A stretch of 41,665 nucleotides of DNA from Fonticella tunisiensis (lineage in GTDB: Bacteria > Bacillota > Clostridia > Clostridiales > Caloramatoraceae). Positions 6,651-37,021 of this stretch are shown one piece after another. The first letter of the stretch is position 1; each line of letters begins with the position of its first letter. A program made the translations under genes and the position numbers. The DNA lies in assembly GCF_004364155.1 (NCBI RefSeq), contig NZ_SOAZ01000027.1:1-41665 (forward strand). The letters are read 5' to 3'. The notes below the pieces were generated by a model. The model was not told where the DNA came from. It did not search any database and was given only the letters and a program-made list of their open reading frames with translations.

Positions 6651-6734
6651 TTAACCCTTGTGCTACTCTAAAAAGCTCATTGGAATAAAAGCAGATAAAT
6701 TTACAGACCGGCGCTGCGATAAAAAATATATTTC
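6651..6734 (+). repeat. repeat family copy R1, 5' end only
   Basis: Begins at TTAAC and matches the left end of the family through CATTGGAATAAAAGCAGA and GGCGCTGCGATAAAAAATAT, then diverges. It lies in the divergent gap between mrp and the gene at 6793. See R2, R3 and R5 for full copies. Confidence 0.8.
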
Positions 6735-6792
6735 GATTATTTTTAGTTTAAAACTAAAAGCTCTAAAAGTCAATTTATAGGAAGGTGCCAAA

Positions 6793-9209: not shown

Positions 9210-9238
9210 AAAATAAAAAAGTACAGCATGGCTGTACT
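9210..9238 (-). terminator. terminator of the lgt transcription unit
   Basis: On the minus strand an 8-bp stem (AGTACAGC with GCTGTACT, loop of 3 nt) is followed by TTTTTTATTTTATT. It lies beyond the repeat block downstream of lgt and before the acetyltransferase gene, so lgt transcripts would run through repeat R2 before stopping. Confidence 0.75.
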
Positions 9239-9244
9239 GGCGCA

Positions 9245-9305
9245 GTGATAAAAAATATATTGCTCTCACAACTACGCTTGTGCACATTCATATATTTTTT
9301 ATCAC
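9245..9305. repeat. free hairpin related to the repeat family
   Basis: A perfect 16-bp inverted repeat, GTGATAAAAAATATAT (9245-9260) with its complement at 9290-9305, encloses 29 nt. The arms are the same GATAAAAAATATAT sequence that forms the outer stem of the full repeats. This is a minimal outer hairpin without the conserved ends, lying 20 nt from copy R2. Confidence 0.7.
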
Positions 9306-9324
9306 AGCTTATTAAAAAAAGAAT

Positions 9325-9668
9325 TAGCTCTGCATGAAACAAAATTCACCAAAAGATTATGAAAAAAGTTTCTAAATTAATCCGCTTTTCAGTTCAAGAA
9401 CTAAAGCGGAGATAAAAATATATGCAGGCCGCATTTTAGTAAGCAATTAGAAGTTCTTGGCACATAGGATGAAGCAGAGCCTTAGAAGGGTTCGTGGTGT
9501 CTGAGCGAGAGCGAGTTTATAAGCCTTCTTAGGTTATGCGAATCCGGTGCCATAGAACTTCTTTGCGAAGCGTAGCAGCGGCTGGAATATATTTTTATCG
9601 CAGCGCCTACCTGTAGATATTATCTACCTTTATTCCAATGGACTTTTCAGAGCAGCACAATGCGTTAA
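9325..9668 (-). repeat. repeat family copy R2, full length with long interior
   Basis: Read on the minus strand, it starts at TTAAC (9668) inside the lgt 3' end and finishes at GTTTCATGCAGAGCTA (9325). The order is: conserved left end with CCATTGGAATAAA and GGTAGGCGCTGCGATAAA; then an interior of nested inverted repeats (AGAAGTTCT/AGAACTTCT outside, CTAAGAAGG/CCTTCTAAGG inside, apical AAACTCGCTCTC); then the return outer arm ending in TTTTTATCTCCGC; then a right hairpin (CCGCTTT...AAAGCGG); then the conserved right end. Together with the hairpin at 9245-9305 it fills most of the gap between lgt and the acetyltransferase gene. Confidence 0.85.
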
Positions 9669-10397
9669 GTTAAACAGTAAAACTCCACCAATCAAAATGA
9701 ATATACATATAAACTGCGATGTAGAAAGAAGCCCAAGGCTGCCCCTCGGGTCATCCCTGTAAAATTCTATTACAAACCTTCCTATGCTGTATAAAATCAT
9801 ATAAAGGCCGGCAACCTTTCCATTATTTCTGGGCTTACTGGCATATATCAAAAGAATTGCAGCTATTATAAAGTTTCCAAGGCTTGAATAAATCTGAGTT
9901 GGAATTCTTTTAACCCCTGGAGCAACAAAGGGAGAGTTGTTAAAAACGATTCCAAGGGGGCCTGCGGTTACCTTTCCATAGCAACAGCCTGCAAACAGAC
10001 ATCCTATTCTCCCAAAACCCTGGGCAATGGATATTGAAGGAGCAATCAAATCGAAGTATGGTAAAAAGTTTAACTTTTTCCTTCTGCAGTATATGTATGC
10101 AGCTAAAGCTCCACCTATTATTCCCCCATATATCACAAAGCCCGCCGCCAGCATATCCTTTAAAACCACAGGATTTTTAATAATATAGGGCGCCTCTACA
10201 ATGAGAAATAAAAGCTTTGCACCTATTACTCCTCCTATAATCCCGTATATGGCAATATCCGCTACAGCATCCTTGCTGAGCCCTCTCCTTTTTGCCCTGT
10301 ACATAGCAGTTATTATAGCTGCTGCAATGCCTAAAGCTATCATAAGACCATAGCCGTGAACCACGAAATTTCCTATTCTTAGTAAGACAGGATACAA
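9630..10397 (-). CDS. lgt: prolipoprotein diacylglyceryl transferase
   Basis: This integral membrane enzyme transfers diacylglycerol from phosphatidylglycerol to the lipobox Cys of prolipoproteins, the first step of lipoprotein maturation. It has 255 residues and about seven hydrophobic segments. Family signatures are FVVHGYGLMIALG at the N-terminus, AAGFVIYGGIIGG near 85-97, GRIGCLFAGCCYG near 136-148 (with the essential Arg), and RFVIEFYRDDPRG near the C-terminus. The last dozen residues (LTHCAALKSPLE) and the stop codon are encoded by repeat R2, so the native C-terminus was replaced or extended by the insertion. It starts 4 nt after the membrane-protein gene upstream. Confidence 0.93.
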   Translation of the reverse strand: MYPVLLRIGNFVVHGYGLMIALGIAAAIITAMYRAKRRGLSKDAVADIAIYGIIGGVIGAKLLFLIVEAPYIIKNPVVLKDMLAAGFVIYGGIIGGALAAYIYCRRKKLNFLPYFDLIAPSISIAQGFGRIGCLFAGCCYGKVTAGPLGIVFNNSPFVAPGVKRIPTQIYSSLGNFIIAAILLIYASKPRNNGKVAGLYMILYSIGRFVIEFYRDDPRGSLGLLSTSQFICIFILIGGVLLFNLTHCAALKSPLE

Positions 10398-11541: not shown

Positions 11542-13275
11542 CTATTCACGGTTTAGTTTTGGTATCATTATGTTTCCTGTAAACGGGTTATAATACATTA
11601 TCCACATTCCTCTTTCATTGTCCTTGAAGGGTACCCACCTTACAAATCCCGTCATGCCCATGTATGGCTGGTCGGAAATTATATTCCTTCCCTCTATTCC
11701 ATACATAATATACTTTATTTCATTGTTATCATCATATTTTATTCCAAAATAATAATGTCCGCTCTTCTTAAAATATTTAATGTAATTGATGTATGGATAG
11801 GTCATTTTCAGATGATAAATGGCACAGTAGTATGGATAATACTGATTTTCCCTTATCGGTACATCATCCCTTTGAGGAATTAACCACCATTTTGTTCCCC
11901 TAAGTTCATCAGGAACATCCTCAAACGGTGAAAAATCCTTAAGGACATCATTAAACATGTCTGCATATTTCTTCCTGCCCTTGCTTTCCCCTCTAATTAA
12001 GTCAGGGTTAACATCCTTGATTCCCTTAACCTCTTCCATATCATACTCATTAAGCCTTCCAGGAATATTTCTGACCTCATCCCTGGTTACAGGTGTGTAA
12101 GCGTTTTTGCTTCCTCCAGATAGCGGTGCCTCTGAAGCTGATTTTGGTGCGTTCGAATCCTTAGACTGTGGTTTTGAGGAAGCCCGGGCTGAAGATGAAC
12201 TGCTCTGAGGCTTTAGTGGTCCTTCATCCTTAGATTGTGAAGTTCCTTCGGATTTGGCCGCCTGGGACTTTGCAGCTGAAGAGGGCGATGATGTTGCTCC
12301 CTGGGATTTAACCTCCTGTGGTTTTGATACATTCCCTTCTTTAGACTGCGTGGCCCCTTCAGATTTATCCGCCTGGGGCTTTGCGGCTGAAGAGGGCGAT
12401 GATGTTGCTCTCTGGGATTTAACATCCTGAGGTTTTGATGCATTCCCATCTTTAGACTGCGTGGCCCCTTCAGATTTATCCGCCTGGGGCTTTGCGGCTG
12501 AAGAGGGCGATGATTTGGACTCCTGGGACTTAGGTGGCGAAGCATCCTGCTGTTTAGTATCCCGAGGCCTTACTCCTTCTGTGTTCGCTGGTTTATTTTC
12601 ATCAGGATTGTCCTTCTCAGAACTCCTCCTTTGATCAGGCTCTGCCTGAGCCTTAAACTCTTTCTCAGCCTCATCCTGCTTTTCCTCAACCCCTTCAGCA
12701 TTACCCTCTTTTTCATCTTCACTTCTTTCAGCCTTTATTTCCTCTTCCTCGCTGTCCCTCTTTATTTGTTCCTCATATTCCTTGAACTTCTTTGCTTCCT
12801 CGTCGAGCTCTTCATCTGTAATATATGTTTCATCCTCTTCGCTGCTCCTTGGCTTTGATACAAGCTTCTCCTTCCATAGTATCCTATCCTTCCCCACATA
12901 GCCCGATACAGGTGCTAATATGGTATCACCCTCAACGATTATGGCAGCTACATTAAACCTGTCGACGGGAACTCCCGTACCTGCTATATCGTCCTCTTTA
13001 AATTCCCACCAGGTTTCTCCTCTTCCCGTTTCATCTATGCTTATCTCACCAAGTTTAGCTACAACTGGAGGATTCTTCGTAGCATCTATAAGGCAGCAGG
13101 TATATGGGCCCTTTTCTTTTACAAGGTTTTGTGCATACACTGTAATTTTACATTTTTCATTACGCGTTTCAATCTTTGTATATCCAGTAGGTGGCTTGTC
13201 AATTGCTATTCCAAAACCCCTGTCGTCTTCTTGAAATATAATGAAATACCTATTATAACTCTTTTTAGACGTCAC
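11542..13275 (-). CDS. large protein with low-complexity tandem-repeat linker
   Basis: 577 residues in three parts. The first (1-140) is a beta-rich domain (RYFIIFQEDDRGFGIAIDK, CKITVYAQNL, PYTCCLIDA, NVAAIIVEGD). The second is a linker of about 250 residues: first very acidic (EEEEIKAERSEDEKEG), then Ser/Pro/Lys/Gln-rich with three 37-residue tandem repeats. The third (about 400-577) is a compact aromatic domain (FEDVPDELRGTKWWLIPQ, YPYYCAIYHLKMTYPYI, HYYFGIKYD, GFVRWVPF, IMYYNPFTGNIMIPK). No signal peptide is seen. I know of similar clostridial proteins only as hypothetical. GTG 13275 follows GGAGGGTAGGAG. It occupies the place of yabG next to ksgA and could be spore- or envelope-related; that is inference. 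Confidence 0.75.
   Translation of the reverse strand: MTSKKSYNRYFIIFQEDDRGFGIAIDKPPTGYTKIETRNEKCKITVYAQNLVKEKGPYTCCLIDATKNPPVVAKLGEISIDETGRGETWWEFKEDDIAGTGVPVDRFNVAAIIVEGDTILAPVSGYVGKDRILWKEKLVSKPRSSEEDETYITDEELDEEAKKFKEYEEQIKRDSEEEEIKAERSEDEKEGNAEGVEEKQDEAEKEFKAQAEPDQRRSSEKDNPDENKPANTEGVRPRDTKQQDASPPKSQESKSSPSSAAKPQADKSEGATQSKDGNASKPQDVKSQRATSSPSSAAKPQADKSEGATQSKEGNVSKPQEVKSQGATSSPSSAAKSQAAKSEGTSQSKDEGPLKPQSSSSSARASSKPQSKDSNAPKSASEAPLSGGSKNAYTPVTRDEVRNIPGRLNEYDMEEVKGIKDVNPDLIRGESKGRKKYADMFNDVLKDFSPFEDVPDELRGTKWWLIPQRDDVPIRENQYYPYYCAIYHLKMTYPYINYIKYFKKSGHYYFGIKYDDNNEIKYIMYGIEGRNIISDQPYMGMTGFVRWVPFKDNERGMWIMYYNPFTGNIMIPKLNRE
12182..12514 (-). repeat. three tandem 111-bp units inside the linker gene
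   Basis: Unit-equivalent points lie at 12230, 12341 and 12452, exactly 111 bp apart (37 codons). Two units are nearly identical (PQADKSEGATQSK, then KPQ, then SPSSAAK) and the third is diverged. Because 111 is a multiple of three, copy number can change without breaking the frame. Confidence 0.85.
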
Positions 13276-17320: not shown

Positions 17321-19273
17321 TTACTTCACCTGTGCTCCTGTCTCTATCTCTCCATCAACAGTTGCAAGCAGAAGCTTTTCCTTGTTTGGGGTTGAAGCCG
17401 CCAGTATCATTCCATAGGAATCAACTCCCCTTAGCTTTACAGGCTTAAGGTTTGCAACGAGTATTACCTGCTTTCCTACAAGCTCCTCAGGAGTGAAGTG
17501 CTTTGCAATACCTGAAACTACCTGTCTTATCTCTCCGCCAAGGTCTACCTTAAGCTTTAAAAGCTTATCTGCACCCTTTATCCTTTCACATTCAACAACC
17601 TTAACAACCCTTAAGTCTATTTTTGAAAAATCGTCTATTGTTATCTCTTCCTTAATTGGCTCCATCTTTGGCTTCTCTGCCACCTGAGCCTGCTTCATGG
17701 CCTCTTCCCGTATTTTATCAAGCTCTGCAAGCTTCTTCTCAACATCGATTCTAGGGAACAGAAGCTCTCCCCTTTGAACCTTTACGCCAGTCTTAGTTTT
17801 GCCAAATTCCTTTATGCTGTCCCAGGTTAAAATATCAGCATCAAAATTAAACTGCTCATTTATCTTCCTTGAAGTATCAGGCATAAAGGATGATATAAGA
17901 ATTGAAACTATTCTTATTGCTTCTGTGAGGTTATATAAAACTCCTGCAAGCCTATCCCTTTGTGCCTCGTCCTTTGCAAGCACCCATGGCATAGTTTCGT
18001 CTATATACTTGTTAGCCCTTGATATAAGCTTCCATATTTCATCCATTGCATCGCTTATTCTAAGCCTGTCAACAAGGCTCTCAACCTTTGAATGAGTTTC
18101 AACGGCAAGCTTTCTAAGGCTTTCATCGAATTCTCCCTCAAACCTTCCCTCGGTTATAACTCCTCCAAAATACTTTTCAATCATTGTAAGGGTTCTTGAT
18201 ACGAGGTTTCCAAGGTCGTTTGCAAGGTCTGAGTTTATCCTCTTTATGAACATCTCATTGTTGTAAAGGCCGTCTGAGCCAAAGGGTATCTCCCTTAAAA
18301 GATAATATCTTATTGCATCCACACCAAAGTGATCTGCAAGGACAACGGGGTCAACCACATTACCCTTTGACTTAGACATCTTGCCTCCATCGACAAGGAG
18401 CCATCCATGCCCAAATACCTGCTTTGGAAGTGGAAGATCAAGTGCCATAAGCATTATGGGCCATATAATAGTGTGAAATCTTATGATATCCTTTCCAACA
18501 AGGTGTACGTCTGCAGGCCAGTACTTTCTATAGAGCGTGTCATCATCGCTTCCATATCCAAGGGCAGTTATATAGTTTGAAAGGGCATCAACCCATACAT
18601 ATATAACATGATTTTCGTCGAAGGTTACAGGTATTCCCCACTTGAAGGAAGTTCTTGAAACGCAAAGGTCCTCAAGGCCCGGCTTTAAGAAGTTGTTTAT
18701 CATTTCGTTCTTTCTGCTCTCAGGCTGAATGAAGTCAGGATGCTCTTCAATATGCTTTAAAAGCCTATCCTGATATTTTGACATTCTAAAGAAGTACGCT
18801 TCCTCCTTTGTAAGCTCAACTGGCCTTCCACAGTCAGGGCATTTTCCATCTACGAGCTGAGTTTCTGTAAAGAAGGATTCACAGGGTGTACAATACCAGC
18901 CTTCGTAGTGCCCCTTATAAATATCTCCCTTTTCATAGAGCTTTTTAAATATCTCCTGAACGGCCCTTTCATGATAATCATCTGTGGTTCTTATAAACCT
19001 GTCATAGGAGATGTTAAGCAGCTTCCAGAGGTCCTTAATACCTGCAACTATTTCATCTACATATGCCTTTGGCGTTGTTCCCTTCTCCTTTGCAATTCTT
19101 TCAATTTTCTGGCCGTGTTCATCTGTTCCCGTTAAGAACATTACATCATATCCCGTAAGCCTTTTAAACCTTGCCATTGCATCAGCTGCAACGGTTGTAT
19201 AGGCATTTCCTATATGAAGCTTATTGCTTGGATAGTATATAGGGGTTGTAATATAATAGGTCTTTTTTTCCAT
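17321..19273 (-). CDS. metG: methionyl-tRNA synthetase
   Basis: Class I synthetase that charges tRNA-Met. It has 650 residues from ATG 19273, which follows AGAAAGGAGAAATATC; the 20 extra upstream codons are not family-like and are partly repeat-derived. Order: HIGH box as LHIGN near 20; zinc knuckle CTPCESFFTE with CPDCGRP near 125-145; KMSKS as KMSKSKGNVV near 300; anticodon-binding helices; and a C-terminal tRNA-binding OB domain (FSKIDLRVVKVVECERIKGADKL near 548, then GKQVILVANLKP). A Met T-box lies upstream, but repeat R3 sits between the two, giving a leader of about 650 nt. Confidence 0.97.
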   Translation of the reverse strand: MEKKTYYITTPIYYPSNKLHIGNAYTTVAADAMARFKRLTGYDVMFLTGTDEHGQKIERIAKEKGTTPKAYVDEIVAGIKDLWKLLNISYDRFIRTTDDYHERAVQEIFKKLYEKGDIYKGHYEGWYCTPCESFFTETQLVDGKCPDCGRPVELTKEEAYFFRMSKYQDRLLKHIEEHPDFIQPESRKNEMINNFLKPGLEDLCVSRTSFKWGIPVTFDENHVIYVWVDALSNYITALGYGSDDDTLYRKYWPADVHLVGKDIIRFHTIIWPIMLMALDLPLPKQVFGHGWLLVDGGKMSKSKGNVVDPVVLADHFGVDAIRYYLLREIPFGSDGLYNNEMFIKRINSDLANDLGNLVSRTLTMIEKYFGGVITEGRFEGEFDESLRKLAVETHSKVESLVDRLRISDAMDEIWKLISRANKYIDETMPWVLAKDEAQRDRLAGVLYNLTEAIRIVSILISSFMPDTSRKINEQFNFDADILTWDSIKEFGKTKTGVKVQRGELLFPRIDVEKKLAELDKIREEAMKQAQVAEKPKMEPIKEEITIDDFSKIDLRVVKVVECERIKGADKLLKLKVDLGGEIRQVVSGIAKHFTPEELVGKQVILVANLKPVKLRGVDSYGMILAASTPNKEKLLLATVDGEIETGAQVK

Positions 19274-19301
19274 GATATTTCTCCTTTCTATTATGGTAAT
19301 A

Positions 19302-19668
19302 TAATCTATTGTGCTACTACTGTGAAAAGCCAATTGGAATAAAAGTAGAAAATGTCTACAGGTAGGCGCTGCGATAAAAAATATATTTCATTCACCAGTA
19401 CGCTTAGCAAAGAAATTCTAAGGCTTGGGATTTGAAAAATCAAGAACTTTCGTTAAACTCGCTTCTCTTAAGTCACGAAAGTTCTAGGGATTTTTTTGCA
19501 TCCCTTCGCCAAGAATTTCTAATTGCTCGCTTTATGTGAATTTCATATATTTTTTATCTCCGCTTATGCACTACAAAACGTTAAGGTAAATATAAAAGCT
19601 TTCTTAGATTAAGTTTAGCTATTAATATTAAAACTGTTTTCATAATCATGTGGTGAATTTTGTTTCAT
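19302..19668 (+). repeat. repeat family copy R3, full length, between T-box and metG
   Basis: Plus-strand copy with a slightly diverged left end (TTGTGCTACTACTG...AATTGGAATAAAAG), GGTAGGCGCTGCGATAAAA, three nested inverted repeats, the return arm TTTTTTATCTCCGC, and the right end GTGGTGAATTTTGTTTCAT. The nested pairs are: outer GATAAAAAATATAT with ATATATTTTTTATC; middle AGAAATTCT with AGAATTTCT; inner AGAACTTTCG with CGAAAGTTCT. The apical loop carries AAACTCGCTTCTC. The right hairpin segment seen in R2 and R5 is diverged here. The copy ends within about 6 nt of the T-box terminator. Confidence 0.85.
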
Positions 19669-19671
19669 AAA

Positions 19672-19922
19672 AATAAAAACCCCGCTCCCTAATAGATAGG
19701 GGCGAGGTACCGCGTTACCACCCTAGTTCACCTGTACTTCACAGCACAGGCCTCAGCAAGTGACTATCATCACTGTGCAATGTAACGGTTGCACCCGTAA
19801 CAGCCTACTAAAGTTCAGCTGCCATGCTCCAGAACCATCTTCACATATCCCTCCACCACCGGCTTTCACCTTACCCGGCTCTCTTTAGGCTTTAGAATAT
19901 GATACTCTTTCCTTCACAGCAT
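19672..19922 (-). promoter_or_regulatory. T-box riboswitch, Met (AUG specifier)
   Basis: On the minus strand the leader has stem I with the AGTA motif opposite a specifier loop TGAAGATGG; the triplet ATG lies near 19838, framed by CATATTC/GGATATG above and GGAA/TTCT below. The T-box AGGGTGGTAACGCGG follows, with TGGT complementary to a tRNA 3' end carrying discriminator A, as in tRNA-Met. The terminator stem (CCTCGCCCCTATC with GGGAGCGGGG) and T run end the element. Uncharged tRNA-Met should permit read-through to metG. Confidence 0.9.
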
Positions 19923-19931
19923 CTTTTTATT

Positions 19932-21501: not shown

Positions 21502-21549
21502 TTAACTTGTTGTGTTGCTCTGAAAAGTTCATTGGAATAAAAGTAGAAT
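21502..21549 (+). repeat. repeat family copy R4, short left-end fragment
   Basis: Matches the first 48 bp of the family, from TTAACTTGTTGTG through CATTGGAATAAAAGTAGAA, then diverges 30 nt before the end of spmB. No right end is found nearby. Confidence 0.75.
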
Positions 21550-29788: not shown

Positions 29789-29859
29789 TTAATCACCTCG
29801 TATATAATTTTAGTACATTAATAATAATTTTTAAATAATGAGTGTCTTTAAAGCAAAAC

Positions 29860-30106
29860 TAGCTCTGCATGAAACAAAATTCACCACAAGATTATGAAAA
29901 CAGTTTCTAGATTAACCCGCTTTTCAGTTCAGAAACTAAGCGGAGATAAAAAATATATGAAATTCATATTTTTCAAATCCCAAGCCTTAGAACTTCTTTG
30001 CAAAGCGTACTGGTGAATGAAATATATTTTTTATCGCAGCGCCTACCTGTAAACATTTTCTGCTTTTATTCCAATGGGCTTTTCAGAGTGGCACAAAGTG
30101 TTAAAT
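29860..30106 (-). repeat. repeat family copy R5, short interior
   Basis: On the minus strand, from TTTAACACTTTGTG (near 30106) to GTTTCATGCAGAGCTA (29860). It has both conserved ends and the outer stem (GCGATAAAAAATATATTTCA with a return arm TGAATTTCATATATTTTTTATC). It also has the right hairpin CCGCTTAGTTTCTGAACTGAAAAGCGG. It lacks the middle and inner hairpins of R2 and R3: the sequence jumps from GGGATTTGAAAAAT straight to ATGAATTTCATA. It lies between divergent nurA and abrB and comes to about 45 nt from the abrB -35. Confidence 0.85.
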
Positions 30107-36851: not shown

Positions 36852-36976
36852 CGCAATCAACTCCCGTCAGGTATTTTTTATTTTAATTATATTATATAGT
36901 TTTACAGTTTTTAAATAGACCAAAAATAACACCGCCGTTAGTAGTGTTTTGTTCTACACTTCAGCCTCCTTTTTTT

Positions 36977-37021
36977 AAATCCCAAGCCTTAGAACTTCTT
37001 TGATAAGGGTGCTGGTGAATG
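36977..37021 (-). repeat. repeat family copy R6, internal relic
   Basis: AAATCCCAAGCCTTAGAACTTCTTTG (split here at a few positions) and CTGGTGAATG match the interior of R5 in the same orientation. Neither conserved end is present. The rest of 36861-37191 holds only the yaaO leader and the gin terminator. Confidence 0.6.

Follow-up and report, generated by a model that had tools for sequence, protein, structure and literature searches.

The Fonticella tunisiensis contig described here raises the question of how a dispersed repeat can change the sequence of its stems and still keep them paired, and of what would be kept in this way: the debris of a transposon, an RNA or a folded strand of DNA. 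The window that we analysed, 41,665 nucleotides long, is the entire contig C27 of a 3.10 Mb genome in 64 contigs (G000), and no other genome in the search, which took in 60 relatives and 225 members of the order, comes from its genus.

Repeat copies in the window

The original prediction was of six structured, MITE-like copies, and stretches of one repeat family are indeed present at all six positions, although R1, R4 and R6 are truncated pieces. R1 (6651-6738, + strand) is a truncated left arm made up of a terminal inverted repeat (TIR; 6651-6666) and the subterminal arm, R4 (21502-21548, +) is likewise a truncated left arm, with its TIR at 21502-21517, and R6 (36970-37021, -) is a fragment of the left core arm in which no TIR is seen. 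R2 (9325-9668, -) is a copy of core class II (see below) with a TIR at 9653-9668, its right part being an internal module without a terminus. The adjoining hairpin at 9236-9312, which has no assigned strand and had been taken to stand free, is part of a compound copy: 9236-9668 is one continuous repeat stretch, for which the compound 489 bp element of locus L010 provides a comparison. The termini first proposed have also had to be replaced; the real end is a 16 bp TIR, and the supposed right end, GGTGAATTTTGTTTCATGCAGAG, is an internal module lying beyond a degenerate TIR-like stretch. R3 occupies 19302-19669, or 19301-19669 (+) when its diverged TIR (19301-19316) is included, and is a class I copy with a right-hand extension, and R5 (29841-30104, -; TIR 30089-30104) is a short-core copy that lacks the apex and, as had been noticed, the inner hairpins. 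When R2 was run against the whole genome it returned at least 52 matches, window copies included (40 of 202 first-look candidates were scored), and the family thus exceeds the six copies in the window.

The interior of the repeats had been described as a set of nested hairpins, and the foldback cores of R2 (9406-9601, -) and R3 (19371-19563, +) do fold, as DNA, far better than their dinucleotide shuffles (z of -6.65 and -7.16 respectively), none of 200 shuffles folding as well as the core in either case. The apical motif of R2, AAACTCGCTCTCGCTCAGACA, lies at 9498-9518 (-), with a tip that reads GC-GAGA-GC on the + strand; the apex of R3, at approximately 19455-19474, has diverged from it. Compensated change between the two copies is present, AGAAGTTCT/AGAACTTCT in R2 (9550-9564 with 9444-9460) having as its R3 counterpart AGAAATTCT/AGAATTTCT (19409-19423 with 19509-19525), so that this part of the proposed covariation stands. 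A point-by-point reading is not supported, since the two copies fall into separate core classes and the differences between their arms are therefore not simple point changes.

Three further features of the window were noted. The Lgt gene (ORF 9630-10397, -; Pfam LGT spans residues 3-242 of 255) has its last 12 residues (LTHCAALKSPLE) and stop codon encoded by the end of R2. R3 is flanked by a T-box leader (19695-19926, -) and the start of the methionyl-tRNA synthetase gene (region 19273-19926), which places it inside the leader of that gene. At 12227-12559, within the ORF at 11542-13275 (-), there are three tandem 111 nt repeats, of which the second and third show 85% and 64% similarity to the first.

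Ends, transposase and target duplication

The ends of the elements are 16 bp TIRs of the form TTAA-NNN-GTTGTGCTA. With at most one mismatch allowed, this pattern occurs 88 times in forward and 90 times in reverse orientation across the genome (178 sites), as against 0 and 1 for the reversed control. Pairing of inverted ends, which covered the sampled loci rather than all 178 sites, gave 54 two-ended stretches between 60 and 1500 bp in length; 11 measure 164-168 bp and 16 measure 258-260 bp, and a few of the longest are chance pairings. A 1159 bp stretch on contig C36 has perfect TIRs and encodes a 265-residue transposase that scores 88.1 bits against Pfam DDE_Tnp_1_3 (cut-off 27) and 262.7 bits against the NCBIfam IS982 model (cut-off 130). 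A further IS982 copy, on C39, has an open reading frame and TIRs that are two mismatches off, a copy on C1 contains in-frame stops and another is truncated where contig C15 begins. It had been stated that no transposase is present, and this is correct for the elements themselves, but other contigs encode an IS982 transposase flanked by these ends.

If the start of the element is read as A-NNN-GTTGTG, the target duplication is of 7 bp, TAAWTTA. Identical flanking 7-mers are found in 17 of 35 elements, against a mean of 7.4 and at most 14 over 2000 shuffles. The way that elements were selected fixes three of these seven positions, which leaves the information in the central and outer bases; taken by itself, the central base gives a z of 5.7. 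The duplications in the other 18 elements are imperfect. An earlier reading as a one-base duplication is superseded by the 7 bp reading, and IS200/IS605-type ends were dropped as a candidate, TIRs being present instead.

The repeats are short, carry no transposase of their own, occur in many dispersed copies, share their TIRs with the IS982 element and have a target duplication. Judged by sequence, they are MITEs that use the ends of an IS982-family transposase, as the MITE-like character suggested originally would have it, and would have transposed by means of it. Of 49 two-ended elements, not one falls within an ORF: 24 stand between tandem, 12 between divergent and eight between convergent genes, and five are at locus edges. 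The two-ended copies include ten, 164-167 bp long, that have TIRs and no apex, and since such copies of about 165 bp lack the apex the core would not be required for IS982 movement. The core may then be cargo that persists for a reason of its own, or else be kept by unseen selection.

Core classes

The 65 distinct complete cores in the sampled loci fall into class I (34), class II (eight), class III (six) and a short type (17), to which R3 (I), R2 (II) and R5 (short) contribute. The long classes have a common scaffold of an A+T-rich outer stem, a AGAANTTCT-like stem, a GGC/GCC stem, inner stems and an apex of the type AAACTCGC...CTCARACA, and the classes swap parts. In one chimera, at L045:1501-1795, the left half of a class I core is joined to that of a class III core in reverse-complement orientation, as though the strand had been switched at the apex. 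Mean identity over the columns of an alignment of 27 class I copies is 95%; these copies are so alike that covariation within this genome is thin and says little by itself.

Distribution of the core

By sequence, R2 finds matches in only four of 60 near genomes, two of which (G005 and G009) match over only some 30 bases. In G002, which belongs to another genus of the same family, at least 40 matches to one of its own left arms were found (40 of 121 candidates were scored), and the core there has foot mismatches as in F. tunisiensis (GCTGCGATAA / TTATCTCCGC) and different termini (CTGTAATTCGTAATTTA...). Another hairpin (GTAGGG..GGTCTTGACC..) takes the apical place in nine of 19 of the G002 loci listed (L120-L141); it is a second repeat, of the form GTAGGG(A/G)(A/G)CGGTCTTGACCGTTCC...GGAACGGTCAAGACCG(T/C)TCCCTAC.

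The apical motif, AACTCGC-N(2-7)-CTCARACA, reaches considerably further. Searched as AACTCGCN{2,7}CTCARACA, it is present in 76 of the 225 genomes of the order, with up to 94 copies each, the reversed-motif control giving no more than one hit per genome outside genus g24. The original prediction would have been refuted by copies restricted to the window; they are instead found elsewhere in the genome and in other genomes of the order. An even sample across the phylum yielded the motif in 30 of 398 genomes, 13 of these with a single hit that may be chance. When the genome collection was scanned for AAACTCGCTNCGCTCAAACA, at least 116 stretches were returned, and the matches listed include Variovorax, Ralstonia, Flammeovirga, Parabacteroides, Flavobacterium, Desulfobacula, Lachnospiraceae and Selenomonas among others, so that the motif is present in several phyla; a scan of the same collection with a longer pattern gave no match. 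In 22 genomes chosen as motif carriers there are 800 occurrences of the wider motif and none of the reversed control, the highest copy number being 171 in Flammeovirga sp. EKP202. A plasmid search with R2-like Variovorax DNA found one record, with no annotated feature under the match. A phage origin was considered and dropped, only seven viral-contig stretches containing AAACTCGCTNNGCTCAAACA.

In Flammeovirga sp. OC4 (L424 and L425) copies stand in tandem every 368 or 350 bp. Approximately 110-230 bp from the first hairpin at L162, L168, L292 and L199 there is another of the family in inverted orientation, with the apex altered in some, an arrangement reminiscent of paired REP units; a gene common to paired hairpins was sought in L281 and L285, and nothing shared was seen.

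At one orthologous site in genus g24 the element is present in G119, absent in G125 and represented by a left-end relic in G130, a comparison that shows turnover rather than a clean empty site. The elements therefore turn over and are not fixed local regulators.

Arm pairing and covariation

Flanks were aligned from the motif outwards, with Watson-Crick pairs rewarded and all mismatches treated equally. Among 144 copies outside the F. tunisiensis genome the arm score is at least 20 in 115 (median 64.5), the remaining 29 having poor arms, and flanks taken from different copies give a median of 2, with 5% above 21.8; these high null scores presumably arise from the relatedness of some copies. 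In a wider scan 115 of 121 copies score at least 11, against a null 99th percentile of 8. Scores are thus high within copies and low across them, and the arms therefore pair inside each copy despite sequences that differ from copy to copy. The apical motif is the tip of a hairpin.

Of 46 copies, the 43 with an arm score of at least 40 were aligned; they come from six g24 genomes, and at 35 of 50 predicted pairs they have at least one pair-preserving double change. Double changes occupy 292 cells, where shuffles that ignore relatedness give 77.6 +/- 8.7, and 95.4% of cells are paired against 80.9% when shuffled, every slid version being far lower. A covariance model built from these 43 sequences, all from a taxonomic family other than that of the window, matches R2 at 9419-9591 (49.0 bits, E 1.3e-8) and R3 at 19382-19549 (37.8 bits, E 4e-6), the next hit in the window having an E of 1.6. 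The same alignment without structure gives 25.6 bits for R2 and misses R3, and since the R3 apex departs from the motif, the motif alone is not the driver of the R3 match. R2, with the motif, and R3, with a diverged motif, are both recovered by the structure model and belong to the apex-tipped foldback family. The model also matches 55 of 57 further motif-chosen loci at E<=1, missing L205 and L078, the latter a class I locus of F. tunisiensis itself, and 54 of 65 motif-chosen loci from the wide scan at E<=0.1. Selection on structure, as first proposed from the changing arms, is supported by these alignments across genomes, where covariation is strong, and is thinly attested within the genome itself. 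The outcome named in advance as refuting it, a lack of significantly co-varying pairs, did not occur.

Folded DNA or RNA

Covariation of this strength would also be expected if the core were transcribed, probably from the TGTYTGAGC strand, and served as a structured non-coding or 3'-UTR RNA with transposons as the means of its spread; we regard this as rather unlikely. Among isolated mismatches in the paired arms, with each context counted once and three pairs required on both sides, there are 21 G-U against 46 A-C on the motif strand, and eight against 23 in the wider set, counts that are inflated by related copies. Every A-C becomes a G-T when the opposite strand is read, so that the TGTYTGAGC strand, where G-U exceeds A-C by about two to one, tolerates wobble better; this modest excess would also fit an RNA of that strand. 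Wobble is nevertheless rare: the 2139 cells of the g24 alignment comprise 2010 Watson-Crick pairs, 31 G-U, 50 A-C and 48 others.

The tip loops point the other way. On the TGTYTGAGC strand, among loops with a GC..GC closure, 24 of 42 triloops read GNA and 33 of 45 tetraloops read GNNA (109 distinct copies, relatedness again inflating the counts), and no G..A tip loop is found on the motif strand among the 109. GNA and GNNA loops closed by C-G, for example d(cGNNAg) and d(GCGAAGC), are unusually stable in DNA, and RNA favours GNRA loops, whereas the GNNA loops here are GNYA in 25 cases and GNRA in eight. Loops in some lineages are of neither kind, those of Flammeovirga often being TAAA or TTT, and as many of the copies counted come from one genus the loops incline towards DNA and are not proof of it.

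Gene context, with ORFs called by a simple script, gives a divided answer. The 115 outside copies with good arms lie inside ORF-like stretches (10), between convergent genes (49), between divergent genes (10), at edges (three) or between tandem genes (30 on the motif strand and 13 on the opposite one). The wider set (n=115) has 10 inside long ORFs, 21 convergent, eight divergent, 20 at edges and, between tandem genes, 25 on the motif strand and 31 opposite. The excess of convergent over divergent positions in both sets favours transcription, but the bias with respect to gene strand is inconsistent between them. On a Parabacteroides contig (L423) there are seven short copies, all with the motif on the + strand, and the longest surrounding ORFs are on the - strand, an arrangement that counts in favour of an RNA. 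Against an RNA, Rfam gives no match at gathering score over the window elements or in 18 loci and, at E<=5 in 20 loci, only sub-threshold matches at hairpins; a known Rfam family was dropped as a candidate with the gathering score unreached. Intrinsic terminators at the g24 ends were likewise rejected, the order of T-run, hairpin and A-run having the wrong polarity. On balance we lean, with moderate confidence, towards a core that works as folded DNA rather than as RNA.

Discussion

The reading that we moderately favour is that the repeats are IS982-mobilized MITEs carrying a more widespread foldback core that acts as folded DNA. An IS982-family transposase acting in trans would recognize the shared TIR and move the repeats, duplicating the 7 bp TAAWTTA target. 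The cargo is the nested hairpin core of approximately 200 nt, which is distributed more widely than the IS, and the sequence of its stems drifts while pairing, some mismatches, internal loops and the apex persist. The TGTYTGAGC-loop-GCGAGTT strand is predicted to fold, either single-stranded or as a cruciform arm, around a stable GNA/GNNA tip, and a putative structure-specific protein could read the tip and internal loops. The core would ride whatever ends are available, those of IS982 here and quite different ones in G002 and genus g24.

Neutral palindromes without function, in which template switching or conversion between the arms at replication maintains their likeness, are in our view an improbable source of this pattern. 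One-event arm copying does predict that double changes (292 cells) should be many relative to the 31 G-U and 50 A-C cells, the L045 chimera resembles a strand switch at the apex, and copies turn over at the orthologous site. Arm copying should, however, remove mismatches and internal loops, whereas the A-A mismatches of CTAAG/CTAAG recur, the foot mismatches are common to F. tunisiensis and G002, and the apex is kept across phyla. That the repeats are no more than one ordinary family of IS982 MITEs, and the wider set of hairpins a coincidence of a short motif, is scarcely credible: TIRs, duplication and IS982 evidence suffice for the copies in this genome, and apex-less copies likewise have complete TIRs, but the motif hits in the 22 chosen genomes (800 against none reversed, with the order-wide control also near zero), the recovery of R2 and R3 by a model from another family and the presence of the same core with other ends in G002 all stand against it.

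Beyond the mobilized folded-DNA core proposed for this genome, we raise tentatively the possibility that it belongs to an undescribed, bacteria-wide class of elements that have in common a conserved folded DNA strand with a GNA/GNNA tip, internal loops, free stems, interchangeable ends and a shared reader protein. If the core is what it appears to be, bacteria in several phyla harbour anything between a few copies and over 100 of one structural element in which the stems change and the tip is fixed. Such an element would be a test case both for selection on bacterial DNA secondary structure itself and for a non-coding core that outlives its carrier transposases, and a tip-binding protein would be a concrete target.

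IS982 MITEs are already known, and the MITE layer taken alone is ordinary. MITECca01 of Cardinium is an IS982-derived MITE of about 240 bp without a transposase, present in 169 mostly intergenic copies, with ends that resemble those of an IS982-family element having intact copies (PMC9769881); the likeness to the repeats described here lies in short length, lack of transposase, IS982-type ends and high copy number, and the differences in host and ends and in the nested core and conserved apical loop, which go unmentioned in the parts of that account consulted. REP superfamilies, tagged GTAG or CGTC, are described, in the portions consulted, as intergenic palindromes found across phyla with variable stems and often in inverted pairs (PMC3733652), but their stems are of 5-13 bp with a GTAG/CGTC tag, whereas in the elements here the arms reach about 90 nt, the ends are TIRs and the apex is conserved. 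The ends as read are TTAA-NNN-GTTGTGCTA TIRs and bear no REP tag. Clop-1 of C. perfringens and Clot-1 of C. tetani are, from what was seen of their description, intergenic families of 93 and 74 nt with predicted conserved structure (PMC2267715); they are similarly clostridial, intergenic and structured, but shorter, and are set apart here by description only. In the open-access literature we found no description of an apex-tipped foldback family, and subscription papers, which were outside the scope of the search, could hold one. Both bcr1 of the B. cereus group and the pneumococcal BOX element are structured and MITE-like, and BOX is modular; the resemblance is one of description rather than sequence, and we know of no apex shared with either. 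The two elements are named in PMC2267715 and PMC10969869. Integron attC sites and the hairpin promoters of phage N4 are cases in which a folded DNA strand is recognized by its structure, and they offer, as an analogy only, a possible mechanism for the core described here.
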